Shown here: positions 1-6,541 of the stretch, one piece after another
How positions within the stretch are numbered: position 1 is the stretch's first letter
How the letters are laid out: every line of letters starts with the position of its first letter
Source: a bacterium
Lineage (GTDB): Bacteria; Dependentiae; Babeliae; Babeliales; RVW-14
Direction of reading: 5' to 3'
DNA: 6,541 nt
Assembly (NCBI GenBank): GCA_010027825.1
Contig: RGUK01000082.1
Span: 1 to 6,541 of the forward strand
Notes under the pieces: model-generated
Told to the model about the DNA's origin: nothing
Seen by the model: the letters and a program-made list of their open reading frames with translations, nothing else
Databases searched by the model: none
Position numbers and translations under genes: made by a program

Positions 1-377
1 GCGGTTATAAAGCCAGGACGAGCATCCGCCGTAGATACTATTGCCTTGCCAGTCATGGTTGCCCCCTCAAGCATGAGGGGCGTTTCCAAGATAAGCGCGC
101 CGGGCGATCCAGGAAATGGAGATCCGCCTGAAACTTGGACCGAGGTAGTAACCGGCACTGTAAGCCCTAAAATAGCCGTAGTGCCTTCAGGAACAGAAAA
201 GCCCCGACGAAAATATACCTCCCCACGCGCCCATTCATAGTCAGTGAAGGTATACGCTGCATCAACAAACACCGGTGCATTTCGCCCGTCTAAGATGGCA
301 TACGCAGGTTGCGCTGCAACCAATAACACCCCGAAAAGCAAAAAACACATGCTGCGCATACAGGTGGCTCGCATCAT
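1..377 (-). CDS. Secreted beta-helix-like paralogue, N-terminal part (runs off window)
   Basis: The reading frame opens with ATG ATG at 377 and stays open for 125 codons to the window edge, so the 3' end is missing. Residues 1-27 form a Sec signal peptide: a basic n-region with R3 and R8, a hydrophobic core CFLLFGVLLVAA, and the cleavage site AYA. The mature protein starts ILDG, as in the two genes upstream (VLDG). It then has YTFTD, VYFRRGFSVPEG and beta-rich sequence that aligns by eye with the N-terminal module of the 405-1484 and 1495-4482 products. It is the fourth gene in the row, 27 nt after the tandem stop of the 405-1484 gene. The first ATG lies 4 nt after AAGGAG, the same spacing as in the other two genes; the second ATG (374) would have 7 nt. 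The function is unknown; an exported structural or adhesive role is inference from the fold style only. Confidence 0.8.
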   Translation of the reverse strand, partial: MMRATCMRSMCFLLFGVLLVAAQPAYAILDGRNAPVFVDAAYTFTDYEWARGEVYFRRGFSVPEGTTAILGLTVPVTTSVQVSGGSPFPGSPGALILETPLMLEGATMTGKAIVSTADARPGFIT

Positions 378-381
378 CCCT

Positions 382-387
382 CTCCTT
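382..387 (-). promoter_or_regulatory. Ribosome binding site for the 1-377 gene
   Basis: On the minus strand AAGGAG lies 4 nt before ATG at 377 and 7 nt before the second ATG at 374. It sits in the 27-nt gap after the upstream gene, so translation starts independently here instead of by stop-start overlap. The site identifies the gene as bacterial. Confidence 0.75.
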
Positions 388-404
388 CTCACGCATTCAC
401 CCTA

Positions 405-1484
405 TTAACGCGCTTGATTATTGTTTACTAGCAAAACATTATCCAGCACCAACGTCGCATGGGGCGCGACATCGATAAACGCGTCGTAATCATAGGAAGA
501 GTCTGCACCAATCGTTACTTGCGCATCACTACCTTCACCAAGACCCCGTAAAATGCTTGTGTTGTTCACATTGATCGCACTAATCATATTTTTTGCCAAA
601 TAGGGGGCCGGCAAGGTCAGGGCCTTGTTGTAAGAAAAGGTAGCTGCATCAAGCGTCAACGAACTCCCATGACCGATAGAAAAATAACTACTCGTGAGCG
701 TTGTATTCAAGCGCAACTCCAGCCCCGGGTTCAAAGTAACATTGGTCAGATCATTCAGGTATAGGCCTGCTCGGAGGTGGATGAGAGAGCTGCGTAATCC
801 TGTAATAACATTTTTATAGCCTGAAAACATAAGGTCATACCCCGTACCTGTCATCGTGCCCTCAAGCGTGAAACGCACATCAAGATCTTTGAAGTGGAAG
901 CCATGCCTGCCCGCCGTAGGGGTGGTTGCCCGCAACCGTGGCCCAAATCCCGTTGTAAAATCTTGTACTCCTCGCAGCCAGCCATTACGCAACATCACTG
1001 TTTGTGAAACCGTATTGTCAATCATGAGTGAACCACGGCTTGCGCCATCGCCACGCAGGGTAAGCGCATAAGATCCCAAGTCCAACACCATGCTGTTTTT
1101 AAAAACAAGCTGTTTAGTAAGGTCCGTGTTACTTTCCATGGTGATGACACCCTGGTTGCCATCATTTGTGCAGATAGCGCCACCATTCGTAAAACCAGTC
1201 GCTGCCGGACCTAGCCGCAGCGGCGCGCTCAGGTACAGCACTCCCGTTTGATTCAGGTCAATCGGCCCGTTCACACGCGGAATAACCCCCACATAAGCCT
1301 TTTGGCCAGCAGGCACCGTGAAGCCATTCTTAAAATGCACAAATCCTAATGCATACTCACCATCACTAAAGGTATACGTGTTTTCCACGGTAATAACCGT
1401 AGCACGTCCATCAAGCACAGCATGCGCTATTTGCATAGATGCCGCGATCAAACATATGCCGATAAACGGCAAAAAGATCTTCAC
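405..1484 (-). CDS. Secreted beta-helix-like protein, 359 aa (short paralogue with both caps)
   Basis: The chosen start is GTG at 1484, because AGGAGG lies 4 nt before it and a clean signal peptide follows (residues 1-22, VKIFLPFIGICLIAASMQIAHA split here as VKIFLPFIG, ICLIAASMQ, IAHA). The open frame reaches to 1559, but that extension is charged and overlaps the upstream gene. The mature protein starts VLDG and carries YTFSDG, ALGFVHF and GFTVPAG, then short beta-strand-like turns rich in L, N, G, T and S. Around residues 188-195 is PTAGRH, shared with the 4490-5290 product. The C-terminal third (LNPGLELRL, SSYF, ILRGLGEGS, YDYDAFIDV, LVLDNV) aligns closely with the end of that same protein. 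This is the smallest complete member, so it may be the minimal N-cap, coil and C-cap unit. There is no catalytic motif, anchor or C-terminal barrel. It ends with tandem stops TAA TAG. Right-handed beta-helix is an inference; the function is not recognised. Confidence 0.85.
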   Translation of the reverse strand: MKIFLPFIGICLIAASMQIAHAVLDGRATVITVENTYTFSDGEYALGFVHFKNGFTVPAGQKAYVGVIPRVNGPIDLNQTGVLYLSAPLRLGPAATGFTNGGAICTNDGNQGVITMESNTDLTKQLVFKNSMVLDLGSYALTLRGDGASRGSLMIDNTVSQTVMLRNGWLRGVQDFTTGFGPRLRATTPTAGRHGFHFKDLDVRFTLEGTMTGTGYDLMFSGYKNVITGLRSSLIHLRAGLYLNDLTNVTLNPGLELRLNTTLTSSYFSIGHGSSLTLDAATFSYNKALTLPAPYLAKNMISAINVNNTSILRGLGEGSDAQVTIGADSSYDYDAFIDVAPHATLVLDNVLLVNNNQAR

Positions 1485-1488
1485 CCGC

Positions 1489-1494
1489 CCTCCT
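1489..1494 (-). promoter_or_regulatory. Ribosome binding site overlapping the upstream stop region; decides the GTG start at 1484
   Basis: On the minus strand AGGAGG follows directly after the TAG stop (1497-1495) of the 995-residue gene and precedes GTG at 1484 by 4 nt. The 10-nt gap between the genes is thus almost entirely ribosome binding site, which suggests translational coupling. It is the reason to prefer GTG 1484 over the longer open frame. Confidence 0.8.
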
Positions 1495-4482
1495 CTACGT
1501 CTGCTGGAAGAACACAATTCCCGACTGCGTATCAAGCACCTTGCCTGGCTGAACATCAAGTATCATGTCATGAGATGGGTTGCCATCACCAAAAATAACT
1601 GCTTGGCTGCTGGATAGAGCTCCCTGGTTCTGCAGTGTTGAAGCGCTGCTTACCAGCAGGGTGCCCTTAGTCAATTGCATGCCCGTCGTCGTTGTCGCCA
1701 ACGTCCCCCCGTGCAGTTCAAGCACGGCGGTGTTGTCGGCAAACTGGATCAGCGTCTTATCTGCCACTGGCGGTGCGTACTTAAACGTCATGCCGCGGTC
1801 GACCAACAGCTTGCCAAAGCTGCCGATGGTACTCGTCTTTTGCGAGGCGTACTTGAACGTTGCTGAGCCCGTCAGATCTAGCTCATCACGCACGTATATT
1901 TTGCCACGGGTGAAGCTATAGTCGCCATCTTGCACCAGTAAGACATTGCCAAAGGTCACGGTACAGCGATCATCCATGCAGCAGATGTTGTACCCATGCA
2001 CGTCATTAAGCGTTATGTTGTCAAACAGCAGCGAAGCGCCCGGCCTGAGGACAATGTTTCCGCCCGTGCCTAGCGTTAGCACCTTGCCATTCCCATGAAT
2101 GACCGCTGCTCCTGAGCAGTACCACGTCGAGGTCAAGGTTGCACTATCTCCCAGCTCTACCGTTGCTTGGTGTCCTAGCGTCAGTGTTGAACCACTGCGC
2201 AATCGTACATCGGCAATCGTTACTGGGAAATCTTTAAGCGAAATATTTTGGAACGTGATGTGCGTATCTGGCGATGACAAAAGAATTGGAATGCCTGGAT
2301 TGCGTGCAAACTGAATACTGAAGCCAGCACCATCAAGCACCGTATCGCTTAAGAAGAATAAGCGGCGCAGTGGCGTTACCACCAAGCCTGCTGAGAGCGT
2401 GCTATTACCGGTGTAGTTGAAATCGGCGCCTGGCAGCGTCGTCACGTTGCGTATCAAACCGCTGTCGGCCAATGGATTGTCGCTATTGATGATGAAAATG
2501 TTCTTATTATCGTTGTTACCAAGGGTGTCATAATCGAGCGATGCTCCCTCAGCCACCGCCAGCTGATCTGATGAAGCAAAATACAAAATCTTGTCGGCGG
2601 TCACCACCTTAGTTGGCGCATCAACTGACCACAGCCCCGAGGTAACGGTATACGACCGATCCATCTTCACCACGCAGTTTTTCAGCGATAGCACGCCGGT
2701 GCTGTCGTCAAAGACTATCGTTCCTGTCCCCAAGCCACTGAGCGTCAAATTGTTCAATTCTACCGTCGTGTTGGCTTTTATCCGAATGGTACCCGTTCTG
2801 GTAATGTCCAAAACATTATTGCCGCCAACCACGCTTGCATCACCACTAAACGCCCATTGGCCCGTTAGGCGTGCATCACCTCCCAGCACAATGTTCTTTG
2901 CATTCGTCCAGTAGAGTGTGCTTGTCCACACCGAATCATTTGCTCCAAAGATGAAGTTATTCCCATTCAGCGTTACGCTCCCTGTGCCACTGAGTACATT
3001 GCTTTGCCCAATGCTAAAATCGTTCTCCAGCACCAACGATCCGCCATTCATGATAATCGATTGGCCAAAAATACCCTCCGTACCAAGAATCAATTCTGCA
3101 TCGCTGTTAGCAAGCTGCACCGCGTTAGGTGTTAGGAACTGCGGCCGCCCCTCAATCCGATTATTGCTGCCAAGAACAAATGCCCGCAAATGGGTGGGTG
3201 CATCAACTTGTGCCCGCAAACTGCATGCCCCATTAAGCCGAATTGAATATGTCTGTGTAGCATCCAAGGTTGCTGTCAATAGCAAATCAGAACCATTCTC
3301 TGCATATATGCCATCGCGAAAAAACATGCTGCCCGAGGCATCCACAGAGCAATCAAAAGGAACACGCAGCGTTCCATTCCACCCAAAGAATGGGTGATCT
3401 CCAGGAATGTTTGTTGCCCCCTCAGCAAGATCAATAGACGAAGTTTGCATCTGAAGCACTGGAGGCGAAAAGGATAGATAACGGATATTTTCAAGCGAGA
3501 GGTGAGTACCAGCACTTATACACAAACCAGGCCGCCAAAAGCACTGCACCGTAATGCCATCATCACCGCCCACAATTGAAGAGCTGCCCTTAACCAAAAA
3601 CACGCACGACCCCGAGCCATGGAACACTTGCAGCCCAGTGCCAGTAATAGATAGTGAGGCGTTTTCAAGCTCGAGAGTATTGTTATGTGTCGTATCAAAA
3701 CCTCCAAAATGGGCCATGGTTATACCCGAACCCAGGTGAAGACCAGCCTCCCGAACAATGGAGCACCCTCCACGAACATCCACCAAAGCCTTGCCAACAG
3801 TTTTGAAAAATGAATGTCCGCTTGCGGCATACAAAGCGTATCCAGTTGCTGTCATAGTCGTTTCTGGCTCAAGTAGACAAGTGGTATCTTCAAGCCACAC
3901 TTGCGGAGCCCCAAAATCATTGCCCCGTGCACGAATACGAGGGGCATATCCAGTCGAAAAGTCTTGTACGCCTTGAACAACCCCATTAAGCAAGCGCAAG
4001 GGCACCCCAAGCGAGGTCAACAAGAATGACCCCCGGGCGCCAGGCTCATCGAGCAGAGCCAATGTATTCTGTTGTAATTTGATCGTGGCAGCACAGTTAG
4101 AAAACGTGAGTTGTCCTCCCAGTGGCACATCATTTTCCAAAATAATTGTCGATGCTTGAGCGGTGTCATTCGTAATAATCCCTCCCGTAGGAAACCCTTG
4201 TGAGTTCAGCCCCAGCACCAGGGCATTAGCACTTGTCAGATGCAAAGTACCAGTACCGTTCAGGTTAACTGGACCATCAACAGGCGCATAAACATCAAGA
4301 GCAACCGTTCCGCCGGCAGGAACATTGAATCCTTTTCTAAAATAGACTAACCCAAGCGCACTATCACCATCAGAAAATTGATAGTAATGATTAATAATGG
4401 TTGGCGTAGTGGTACCATCAAGCACAAATGCTCGTGCGTCGGGCATGCAGAGCATTATGGCCAGCGCTAAAGCTCTCTGCAT
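1495..4482 (-). CDS. Large secreted beta-helix-like protein, 995 aa
   Basis: ATG at 4482 is chosen over the open frame's upstream limit (4602) because AGGAG lies 4 nt before it and a signal peptide follows: MQRALALAIMLCMPDARA, cleaved after residue 18 to give FVLDG. The N-terminal module (residues about 19-250) has YQFSDG, ALGLVYFRKGF, NVPAGG, GVVQGVQDFSTGYAPRIRA and MTATGYAL, all matching the 405-1484 product. The rest is beta-strand repeats with N, G, T, S and D turns. Near residues 495-670 there is a distinct stretch (NGNNFIFG, NIVLGGDARLTG, LSGLGTGTIVFDD, LDYDTLGNNDN) that neither short paralogue shows. A Cys-rich spot, NICCMDDRC, lies near residue 836. The end (ILDVQPGKVLDTQSGIVFF) resembles the C-cap of the paralogues. 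No catalytic residues, membrane anchor or autotransporter barrel are seen. Surface or envelope-associated beta-solenoid is inference; an enzyme of the pectate-lyase superfamily is possible but unsupported. Confidence 0.85.
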   Translation of the reverse strand: MQRALALAIMLCMPDARAFVLDGTTTPTIINHYYQFSDGDSALGLVYFRKGFNVPAGGTVALDVYAPVDGPVNLNGTGTLHLTSANALVLGLNSQGFPTGGIITNDTAQASTIILENDVPLGGQLTFSNCAATIKLQQNTLALLDEPGARGSFLLTSLGVPLRLLNGVVQGVQDFSTGYAPRIRARGNDFGAPQVWLEDTTCLLEPETTMTATGYALYAASGHSFFKTVGKALVDVRGGCSIVREAGLHLGSGITMAHFGGFDTTHNNTLELENASLSITGTGLQVFHGSGSCVFLVKGSSSIVGGDDGITVQCFWRPGLCISAGTHLSLENIRYLSFSPPVLQMQTSSIDLAEGATNIPGDHPFFGWNGTLRVPFDCSVDASGSMFFRDGIYAENGSDLLLTATLDATQTYSIRLNGACSLRAQVDAPTHLRAFVLGSNNRIEGRPQFLTPNAVQLANSDAELILGTEGIFGQSIIMNGGSLVLENDFSIGQSNVLSGTGSVTLNGNNFIFGANDSVWTSTLYWTNAKNIVLGGDARLTGQWAFSGDASVVGGNNVLDITRTGTIRIKANTTVELNNLTLSGLGTGTIVFDDSTGVLSLKNCVVKMDRSYTVTSGLWSVDAPTKVVTADKILYFASSDQLAVAEGASLDYDTLGNNDNKNIFIINSDNPLADSGLIRNVTTLPGADFNYTGNSTLSAGLVVTPLRRLFFLSDTVLDGAGFSIQFARNPGIPILLSSPDTHITFQNISLKDFPVTIADVRLRSGSTLTLGHQATVELGDSATLTSTWYCSGAAVIHGNGKVLTLGTGGNIVLRPGASLLFDNITLNDVHGYNICCMDDRCTVTFGNVLLVQDGDYSFTRGKIYVRDELDLTGSATFKYASQKTSTIGSFGKLLVDRGMTFKYAPPVADKTLIQFADNTAVLELHGGTLATTTTGMQLTKGTLLVSSASTLQNQGALSSSQAVIFGDGNPSHDMILDVQPGKVLDTQSGIVFFQQT

Positions 4483-4486
4483 AGTT

Positions 4487-4491
4487 CTCCT
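4487..4491 (-). promoter_or_regulatory. Ribosome binding site inside the upstream stop codon; decides the ATG start at 4482
   Basis: On the minus strand the sequence TAGGAG serves twice: TAG (4492-4490) stops the upstream paralogue, and AGGAG within it lies 4 nt before ATG at 4482. Termination and initiation are therefore almost superimposed, which supports one polycistronic, translationally coupled transcript. Confidence 0.8.
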
Positions 4492-5290
4492 AAAGCACGA
4501 AGTTTTTGTTAATAAATGTAACATTATCCAGTTGCAGCAGCGCACCCGTAGCAATATCAAGTAGCGCATCGTAGGTATACGTAAGTTTTGGCCCGGCCCC
4601 AAACTCTATAGTGTTGTTGCTTCCTGCGCCCGTCCCCCTAAGCACGGTAGCTCCATCAACAATCAAGGTAGGAGTAGTATCTTGAGCAGGGAAAGTGGAA
4701 GGAAGCCGCAAAGGCCGGTTGAAGGAGACTATGTTACTATTCAGATAAAGCTTGCCCCGGCTAGCAACTTGAAAGTAGCTGCTTTCTACAATTGACGGTG
4801 TTAGGTGTAATTCTACGCCAGGCGCAAGCGCTAGAGCGGCGTCGTCCTGTATGTTTAGAGCACTATAAAACTCAGCCGTAGCTCCTGGTTGCCCAATAAT
4901 CCAGCTCACCCCATTTCGACACGTAAAATCTAAATTCGTAAAAGTCATCAGTGGATTAACCGGCTGTGAAATGTCGCCTTCAGGAGATATAGAGGGCACA
5001 AAATTGCGCGACCCCATCACCAGAGAAACTCCTTCCAAAGCAAGTTCATGCCTGCCTGCTGTAGGCCCTCCACAAAACATCGGTGTCACATGAAAAGCAT
5101 TGTCAGCAAAAATCACAGTCCCATTAGTCAAACTAAGCGTCTTGGGGGCTGGGCTGCTAATAATGAAACGTGACGGCAAATCGAAAGGACCATTAGTATC
5201 CCCATCACTCCGCAAGGTCCCTCCCTGCAGATCTATCAAAAAATCATCGCCAAATATTATTGCGTCGCCAATCCCTTTGAGCCTGTTAAG
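4490..5290 (-). CDS. 5'-truncated secreted beta-helix-like paralogue, C-terminal about 267 residues
   Basis: The frame is open from an in-frame TAG at 5332-5330 down to the TAG stop at 4492-4490, but it has no ATG or GTG near its 5' end, only a TTG at 5239 without a Shine-Dalgarno site. No signal peptide or (V/I)LDG module is present. By alignment to the 405-1484 product, roughly the first 130 residues are missing. What remains is clearly family sequence: IIFGDDFLIDLQGGTLRSDG, then PTAGRHELALEG, and a C-terminal third (APGVELHL, ESSYF, VLRGTGAGS, YTYDALLDI, LQLDNV) that matches the short paralogue almost step for step. Sequence beyond about 5285 no longer looks like this family. The 5' end given is where I think the join lies, uncertain by about 20 nt. 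It is best read as a fragment cut by the junction; a truncated pseudogene is the alternative. Confidence 0.75.
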   Translation of the reverse strand, partial: LNRLKGIGDAIIFGDDFLIDLQGGTLRSDGDTNGPFDLPSRFIISSPAPKTLSLTNGTVIFADNAFHVTPMFCGGPTAGRHELALEGVSLVMGSRNFVPSISPEGDISQPVNPLMTFTNLDFTCRNGVSWIIGQPGATAEFYSALNIQDDAALALAPGVELHLTPSIVESSYFQVASRGKLYLNSNIVSFNRPLRLPSTFPAQDTTPTLIVDGATVLRGTGAGSNNTIEFGAGPKLTYTYDALLDIATGALLQLDNVTFINKNFVL

Positions 5291-5300
5291 AACGTAGCAA
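5262..5300. other. Probable junction between a bacterial and a giant-virus sequence
   Basis: To the left, the minus-strand frame reads as beta-helix sequence up to about LKGIGDAIIFG (5284-5252). To the right, the plus-strand frame reads as a coherent protein from about NPFEPVKNVATL (5270 on). Both genes are missing their 5' ends here, although in a head-to-head arrangement an intergenic promoter region would be expected between them. Gene grammar also changes: Shine-Dalgarno sites and signal peptides on the left, a mimivirus-type promoter and overlapping genes on the right. An assembly chimera is most likely. A true insertion or recombination point is possible but would have broken both genes at once. 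Confidence 0.65.
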
Positions 5301-5554
5301 CCCTGTCCGTCTACGTCAGAACCTGGCTCCTAACCTTTCACAATGAGGTGAGGGCAAGCAAAGGTCAGTCCATCGATGTCACCACCCTAGACCAACTGGC
5401 AACCCTCTACGGCTCTGAAACAATTCAGACCTGTCAGATAAAGACAATTATATCCAATGTAAGCTATGGAATTCGCACAGGAATTGTGAAGCAAGACAAC
5501 TGGAAGCGCTGGCATGTCCATTTTAATCGACTGAAAGTGTTGACGGGGACATGA
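5270..5554 (+). CDS. 3' fragment, possible Erv1/ALR-like thiol oxidase with C-terminal extension
   Basis: An open plus-strand frame enters from the presumed junction and ends at TGA 5552-5554. About 94 residues remain and no start codon belongs to it; the GTG at 5348 is internal. The segment NPFEPVKNVATL ... WLLTFHNEV (W at 5324, HN at 5339-5344) resembles the end of the FAD-binding core of Erv1/ALR sulfhydryl oxidases, where animal ALR has WLCHLHNEVN. The CxxC active site would lie upstream and is not in the window. After the HN motif come about 68 residues (including LDQLATLYG and SYGIRTGIVKQDNWKRW) that are not part of the Erv core. Viral Erv1 homologues are nearly universal in large DNA viruses, where they form disulfides in virion proteins, and the mimivirus enzyme R596 also carries an extra C-terminal domain. 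The match rests on one short motif, so it is tentative. Its 3' end overlaps the convergent gene by 32 bp. Confidence 0.5.
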   Translation, partial: NPFEPVKNVATLSVYVRTWLLTFHNEVRASKGQSIDVTTLDQLATLYGSETIQTCQIKTIISNVSYGIRTGIVKQDNWKRWHVHFNRLKVLTGT

Positions 5555-6242
5555 GGAGCCCACAGGTCTGCTGCAGCTGATTCACAATAAACGCATTCAA
5601 CTCTGCTGTGCTCATATTATCATAGTTAAAGATGATGGTATTGAAGAAAGTGTACTCATAGAGGCCAAGGAGAGTGACCATGATAAGATTCTCTATCAAG
5701 ATGCGTTTCCAGGCAAGACGAAGCCTTACCTGGCGCCCTATAGCCGCTCCTATTGCAACTGCCGAGCAGAGTCCAACCACATACATCCAGGCCTGAAGCT
5801 GCAATCGACCATTATACTGACTTATAGCAACACTAGATATCTGATTCTGCTGATAAACGTCGGTAACGTTTATGAACAGGGACAGCACCTCATCCATGGC
5901 CGCCGTTGTATTAGCCGTCCAGTTGCCACATGAATTGAGCACTCCATTCACATACGAGTCCACCGTGGACCGCAAGCCCGCATCCTCTGAGCGACTGACA
6001 AAGTGGAAGAAGAAGACCGTTTCAAACAGGCTAATCAATGTCAGGTGAAGCCCGAAGCCCATGAACCGATTGTACCACTTTTCGCACGGCGTATACTCCC
6101 TGCTCAGTACGACCATATCCGTGGGCGAAGGGTCATGAATAGATTCACTTATAAGGGGTTTGAAGAGGGGCTCAGAATGAATGGTTTCGGGTAGATATAA
6201 TAAAGAATCCGAATACGATGGAGGGCGTCTGTGCCTGTCCAT
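5523..6242 (-). CDS. Three-helix membrane protein with N-glycosylation sequons, giant-virus type, 239 aa
   Basis: The first ATG is at 6242; the open frame continues upstream to a TAA at 6341-6339 but only with a GTG, which a eukaryotic virus would not use, and that part overlaps the promoter region. Residues 1-55 are polar and proline-rich, likely facing the cytoplasm or virion. Predicted membrane segments are about 60-82 (GLHLTLISLFETVFFFHFV), 151-169 (AWMYVVGLCSAVAIGAAIG) and 181-205 (ILIENLIMVTLLG then LYEYTFFNTIIF). Between the first two helices lie sequons NWT (107), NTT (111) and NVT (125), and NMS (209) follows the third; this puts both regions on the lumenal or outer side and fits an odd number of helices. 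The basic RQVRLRLAWKR (170-180) would be the inner loop. The YEYTFFNTIIFNYD region looks like a family signature that I associate, from memory, with uncharacterised giant-virus proteins. A virion inner-membrane role is inference. Confidence 0.8.
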   Translation of the reverse strand: MDRHRRPPSYSDSLLYLPETIHSEPLFKPLISESIHDPSPTDMVVLSREYTPCEKWYNRFMGFGLHLTLISLFETVFFFHFVSRSEDAGLRSTVDSYVNGVLNSCGNWTANTTAAMDEVLSLFINVTDVYQQNQISSVAISQYNGRLQLQAWMYVVGLCSAVAIGAAIGRQVRLRLAWKRILIENLIMVTLLGLYEYTFFNTIIFNYDNMSTAELNAFIVNQLQQTCGLLMSPSTLSVD

Positions 6243-6280: not shown

Positions 6281-6296
6281 AATTGAAAAAATTGAA
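6281..6296 (+). repeat. Direct repeat of AATTGAA containing the early-promoter octamer
   Basis: AATTGAA occurs at 6281-6287 and again at 6290-6296 on the plus strand, a period of 9. Only the second copy completes AAAATTGA. The first may be a degenerate second promoter element or chance in an AT-rich spacer. Confidence 0.4.
6288..6295 (+). promoter_or_regulatory. Mimivirus-type early promoter AAAATTGA
   Basis: A perfect AAAATTGA octamer lies on the plus strand 48 nt before ATG at 6344, oriented towards that gene. This motif is the established early-gene promoter element of Mimivirus and its relatives, usually found within about 150 nt of the start codon. It sits in the only intergenic space of the viral part (6243-6343, 101 nt), which is more AT-rich than the flanking genes. 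A TATAAA at 6311-6316 lies between the motif and the start codon and may be incidental. No Shine-Dalgarno site precedes the ATG. The downstream gene is thus predicted to be an early gene. Confidence 0.7.
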
Positions 6297-6343: not shown

Positions 6344-6541
6344 ATGTCAAGACTACCAGGAGTCGATTTTGACCATTATGGGGCGCTGAAACAGGCGCGC
6401 GCAGAAGCCTTTGAGCTCTGTGAACATCTCGAGGGATGTATCGAAGAGGGCCACGCACGTATCCATCAGGCCAGGATGGGATTCGACAATATAGAGGCCG
6501 CGGAGGCATACCTCCAAGAACAGATAGACGAATATGATGAT
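6344..6541 (+). CDS. Charged, helical hypothetical protein, N-terminal part (runs off window)
   Basis: ATG at 6344 opens a frame of 66 codons that continues past the window edge. It follows the AAAATTGA element by 48 nt and is divergent from the 5523-6242 gene. Residues 1-12 (MSRLPGVDFDHY) are followed by an almost continuous stretch rich in A, E, Q, R and H with leucines, typical of amphipathic helices or a coiled coil. The end of the visible part (EQIDEYDD) is very acidic. There is no signal peptide, membrane segment or cysteine motif (C26 and C32 are isolated). I do not recognise the family and assign no function. Early expression is predicted from the promoter. Confidence 0.65.
   Translation, partial: MSRLPGVDFDHYGALKQARAEAFELCEHLEGCIEEGHARIHQARMGFDNIEAAEAYLQEQIDEYDD

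Follow-up and report, generated by a model that had tools for sequence, protein, structure and literature searches.

The window, the whole 6,541-nucleotide stretch of DNA that was analysed, is made up of two parts of different character. Its left ~5.26 kb form a compact minus-strand operon of secreted beta-helix-like proteins, and the right-hand 1.28 kb resemble giant-virus DNA. The features are laid out as follows.

3..377, minus strand: beta-helix paralogue 1, N-terminal part, running off the window; signal-peptide-like start, AGGAG at 382-386.
405..1484, minus strand: beta-helix paralogue 2, 359 aa, GTG start; signal-peptide-like start, AGGAG at 1490-1494, all-beta model.
1495..4482, minus strand: large beta-helix-like protein, 995 aa; signal-peptide-like start, AGGAG at 4487-4491, near-copy P0122.
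4490..5260, minus strand: fourth beta-helix paralogue, truncated, without start and N-terminal third; from paralogue alignment.
5249..5264, no strand: inferred junction of bacterial and viral DNA; from the edges of both homologies.
5258..5554, plus strand: viral Erv1/ALR-type sulfhydryl oxidase, C-terminal half, CxxC half missing; from viral homology.
5523..6242, minus strand: giant-virus-type membrane protein, 239 aa, RPPSYSDS motif; from homologues, alignment and IMG/VR relatives.
6288..6295, plus strand: AAAATTGA, early-promoter-like motif upstream of a plus-strand ORF; motif meaning from the available part of PMC6163669.
6344..6541, plus strand: first part of an ORF that continues beyond the window, without detected relatives.

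The four left-hand frames lie in tandem on the minus strand (1 to ~5258) with gaps of 7, 10 and 27 bases, and three of them have visible starts, at 377, 1484 and 4482. All three starts open into hydrophobic, signal-peptide-like N-termini (judged by eye) that align with one another, and all three are preceded by AGGAG 4-5 nt upstream; neither of the two viral starts (6242 and 6344) is. The Shine-Dalgarno sites and Sec signal peptides that an earlier, sequence-only reading had placed on this side are thereby borne out, the latter as far as the eye can judge. Even so, AGGAG occurs 15 times in the window, nine times on the minus strand, with 8.4 expected. With its tight spacing, signal-peptide-like starts and AGGAG before every visible start the left side is bacterial by anatomy. 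Neither Pfam nor NCBIfam holds a family above cut-off for the left-side proteins. The AlphaFold model of the 359-aa member (pLDDT 75, pTM 0.72) is all beta except for one short helix; it has no match among PDB folds at E<=0.001, and the best-ranked folds, from E 0.064 and with low TM-scores, belong to known beta-helix proteins but are not significant. A search of 5.8 billion proteins, in which the 7989 best candidates were scored, returned two relatives of the 995-aa protein: P0122, from another JGI contig (8,945 bp at longest), which differs at 2 of 995 residues, and P0123, with 31% identity over 61%. By protein, the left half has no relatives in IMG/VR, in genome contigs (two scans) or in plasmids. 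As an observation in its own right, the operon at 1-5258 represents an orphan family of secreted, beta-helix-like surface paralogues that is almost without relatives.

On the right, the membrane-protein gene overlaps the 3' end of the oxidase gene by 32 bp. Its product has 143 homologues at E<=1, including P0001 (90% identity over 89% of the query) and P0003 (93% over 67%). Of the 120 matches listed, one, on a 460-kb contig, is labelled "viral metagenome", and the others have either no name or a hypothetical one; many stem from unnamed metagenome contigs, none from a named cellular source. An alignment of 21 rows contains 37 invariant positions, and close to the N-terminus the family has an RPPSYSDS motif that is almost strictly kept. 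The window's own member, which the sequence-only reading had called sequon-rich, has four N-x-S/T sequons in 239 residues and falls in no Pfam family. Searched with the alignment, IMG/VR yielded three loci with distant relatives (34-36%), all of them viral records; the single sequence found no match in IMG/VR. Neither the membrane protein nor the whole window matched phages. At one of the three loci, L003, the relative is encoded between the end of the RPB2 gene and the gene for the ribonucleotide reductase large subunit, a neighbourhood that is a giant-virus setting. By homology, then, the right side is giant-virus-like, and no standard marker gene for virus placement was seen in its 1.28 kb.

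At L003 the membrane-protein gene is flanked by intein-like insertions in RPB2 and ribonucleotide reductase (9-1703 and 2515-4896), called from LAGLIDADG-like and Hint hits that lie below their Pfam cut-offs. The stretch between the membrane-protein gene and the oxidase gene at L001 (1438-7590) holds four ORFs whose N-termini are alike and GIY-YIG-like (Pfam confirms one); the first is followed by a DNA methylase gene. L001 256-3828 and L002 4061-7633 hold the same ORFs in two IMG/VR records, apparently one virus in two samples.

Farther right, AAAATTGA at 6288-6295 lies 48 nt upstream of the ATG at 6344, whose ORF was searched for relatives and gave none. This octamer is the early promoter motif of the Mimiviridae, according to the available part of PMC6163669. 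The sequence-only reading was correct in reporting it on the viral side, but the motif also occurs at 4374 in the bacterial part, and at least two copies arose in 12 of 200 shuffles; by itself the copy at 6288 is weak evidence, no more than suggestive of a Mimiviridae-like (Imitervirales) virus.

The two genes that meet in between are both incomplete. The minus-strand frame ending at 4490 is open upstream to 5329, with its first TTG at 5239 and no ATG farther upstream, and inspection by eye found no signal peptide. It aligns with the C-terminal two thirds of the neighbouring paralogue at 408-1484 (E 2e-23), scoring 225 against 77 for the highest of 200 shuffles, and is without its N-terminal third at the join, in agreement with the earlier description of a bacterial beta-helix gene that lacks start and N-terminus. 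Its scores against the large paralogue (71; shuffle maximum 80) and P0123 (57; shuffle maximum 77) stay below chance maxima, and its apparent beta-helix kinship comes from one neighbour only, the 408-1484 gene. The match to that paralogue runs to ~5250, with a thin BLASTP extension to 5305. The bacterial edge can be located only within tens of bases, because the 45 junction-proximal residues are not clearly above chance: the best paralogue's score was reached by 20 of 500 shuffles, those of the other two by 30 and 41 of 500.

From 5249 on, the plus-strand frame ending at 5554 aligns (E 3e-24) with a viral Erv1/ALR protein of 185 aa, over residues 80-182 of the latter. Residues 1-79 of the oxidase, CxxC included, are absent from the window, where the positions aligned to CxxC read QIYQ (5228-5239); that a virus-like gene had lost its N-terminus here was thus rightly recognised from the sequence. 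A tyrosine at 5258 is common to all three aligned oxidase sequences. The protein set yielded a single homologue of the fragment, P0121 (66% identity); the two are identical over 27 consecutive residues, from 5264 to 5344. P0121 also begins near the join and its contig measures only 916 bp, so that it may itself be cut; for this reason the start of the window's frame is judged by one full-length relative. When the records behind the three IMG/VR loci were searched with the oxidase, one of the three matched (G001, E 5.4e-23), and the matching ORF hits the Erv1/ALR family PF04777 (E 9.2e-13; protein alone, E 1.1e-10). Relatives of the oxidase and of the membrane protein thus lie ~8 kb apart on one 27-kb IMG/VR contig, so that the two genes do co-occur in a virus, though neither adjacent nor in the relative orientation they have in the window.

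Other searches with the fragment were less telling. A pattern scan of IMG/VR with the oxidase alignment came back empty, though G001 holds a relative, and such an empty scan is weak evidence. The structure model of the 98-aa fragment is poor (pLDDT 55) and its fold search uninformative; against solved structures a profile search gave one chance-level match and the single sequence none. Some assignments were set aside. The JGI name of P0121, "short-subunit dehydrogenase", is disbelieved, since the viral relative of P0121 belongs to PF04777. The ORF at 5348-5554 resembles an integrase C-terminal domain at E 0.2 and 12.2 bits against a cut-off of 27, and the oxidase match is far stronger. L004 and L005 were rejected as relatives of the fragment, since both are 35-residue matches at 42%; the surroundings of the L004 match appeared phage-like.

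Viral homology sets in at 5249-5264, and both genes are beheaded there at about one point; the bacterial and viral homology edges coincide within about 20-50 bases. The shared break noticed in the sequence-only reading is therefore real as about one point, and it falls at the left edge of the interval proposed for it. Both truncated frames are stop-free up to the join, so neither gene shows decay. Only one edge of any insert would lie within the window; around it, in 4900-5700, there are no direct or inverted repeats of at least 12 bases, and no tRNA gene marks an integration site. The 31-mer at 5253-5283 had no exact match in IMG/VR, a weak result given that IMG/VR is without a close relative of either half. 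Should the two homologies overlap, the bases they share would be microhomology.

Composition differs between the sides. The dinucleotide distance of right to left is 0.149, compared with 0.034-0.104 for 20 overlapping left pieces each set against the rest of the left, and the tetranucleotide comparison that the sequence-only reading had proposed gives a 1-r of 0.862 against 0.299-0.527 for the same pieces. The best single dinucleotide split falls at 5550-5600, the edge of the scanned range, rather than at 5260, a sign of low resolution or of gene content. GC is nearly equal on both sides.

Judged from the sequence, the contig is very probably an artificial chimera of a bacterium and a giant virus. 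Template switching, ligation or false assembly, whether in amplification, library preparation or short-read assembly, would have joined bacterial DNA that stops within the fourth beta-helix gene to giant-virus DNA that starts within an Erv1-like oxidase gene, possibly by way of a short run of bases that match. The resulting locus would have no function of its own, and the genes of each side would belong to, and work in, their own genome. Such a chimera predicts that two unrelated genes lose their N-terminal parts at about the same place and that the composition of the two sides differs, and both are observed; the misassembly suspected in the sequence-only reading gains support accordingly from the protein homology of each half, giant-virus-like on the right, and from the bacterial anatomy on the left. 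DNA from two different kinds of source comes together at a single point, the genes of both are interrupted there without decay, and stop-free frames cut at about one point with no nearby repeats fit an artificial product. Weighing against it are the dinucleotide split away from the join, the near-equal GC and a right fragment of only 1.28 kb, and genuine end-joining recombination would leave an identical sequence picture.

A real join, that is, a fresh transfer of the beta-helix operon into a giant virus or the reverse before the broken genes decayed, has a slim chance of being right; if true, it would be an unusually recent transfer. Giant viruses take up bacterial genes, and the contig is continuous as given, as would be expected had illegitimate recombination inserted bacterial DNA into a giant-virus genome and broken its oxidase gene. 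Such an insert would, however, carry a beheaded bacterial gene and disrupt a viral enzyme gene, with no repeat at the join; nor is there any sign of adaptation to a viral genome, because the Shine-Dalgarno-like sites and signal-peptide-like starts are kept and the near-identical copy P0122 exists elsewhere. We consider this event very unlikely. The longer bacterial side would favour the opposite direction, giant-virus DNA inserted into a bacterial chromosome, and a bacterium living in protists could, speculatively, meet such DNA. Against this, a bacterial gene would be disrupted with no repeats present, the 120 membrane-protein matches listed include no named cellular source and the three loci are viral records; we know of no precedent, and among the readings considered we regard this as the most improbable. 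Hardly more credible is a window drawn from one genome, whether viral with genes of bacterial style or bacterial with virus-like ones, in which the truncated genes are old remnants: the similar GC of the two sides agrees with it, but their composition otherwise differs, the frames are stop-free to the join and so undecayed, and two homologies abut at about one site.

The join itself is thus not to be taken as gene transfer, an amplification or assembly error being most likely. At face value the contig would wrongly indicate that bacteria and giant viruses had exchanged genes, and genes of the bacterium could end up in a viral bin; with a flag on the break at ~5255, each side can be used separately.

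Each component has known counterparts. The left-side proteins resemble secreted parallel beta-helix proteins of the autotransporter/adhesin type in their signal-peptide-like start, many short strands and all-beta model, and differ from them in that neither Pfam nor NCBIfam has a family over its cut-off for them and no PDB fold matches significantly. A known viral Erv1/ALR sulfhydryl oxidase is R596 of mimivirus (from the available part of PMC3509050). The C-terminal half preserved in the window aligns to a PF04777-positive viral protein, whereas the fragment lacks the CxxC half of these oxidases; on its own it gives no PF04777 score and falls short of formal membership of the family. As for the join, more than 70% of the chimera junctions formed in multiple displacement amplification (MDA) were primed at 2-21 complementary bases and more than 85% of the chimeras were inversions with deletions, mostly within one molecule (PMC1855051, as far as available). 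Because most MDA chimeras are inversions within one molecule, a join of two genomes is not their commonest product. Viral records misassembled so as to carry foreign ends have been described as well (PMC9765019, likewise in part). The former study concerns bacterial single-cell amplification and the latter reference records of eukaryotic viruses, both different from the present case, in which the route may have been MDA, ligation or the assembler. What the window shares with both, in so far as these sources describe them, is an abrupt join of unrelated sequences inside genes, with no repeats.
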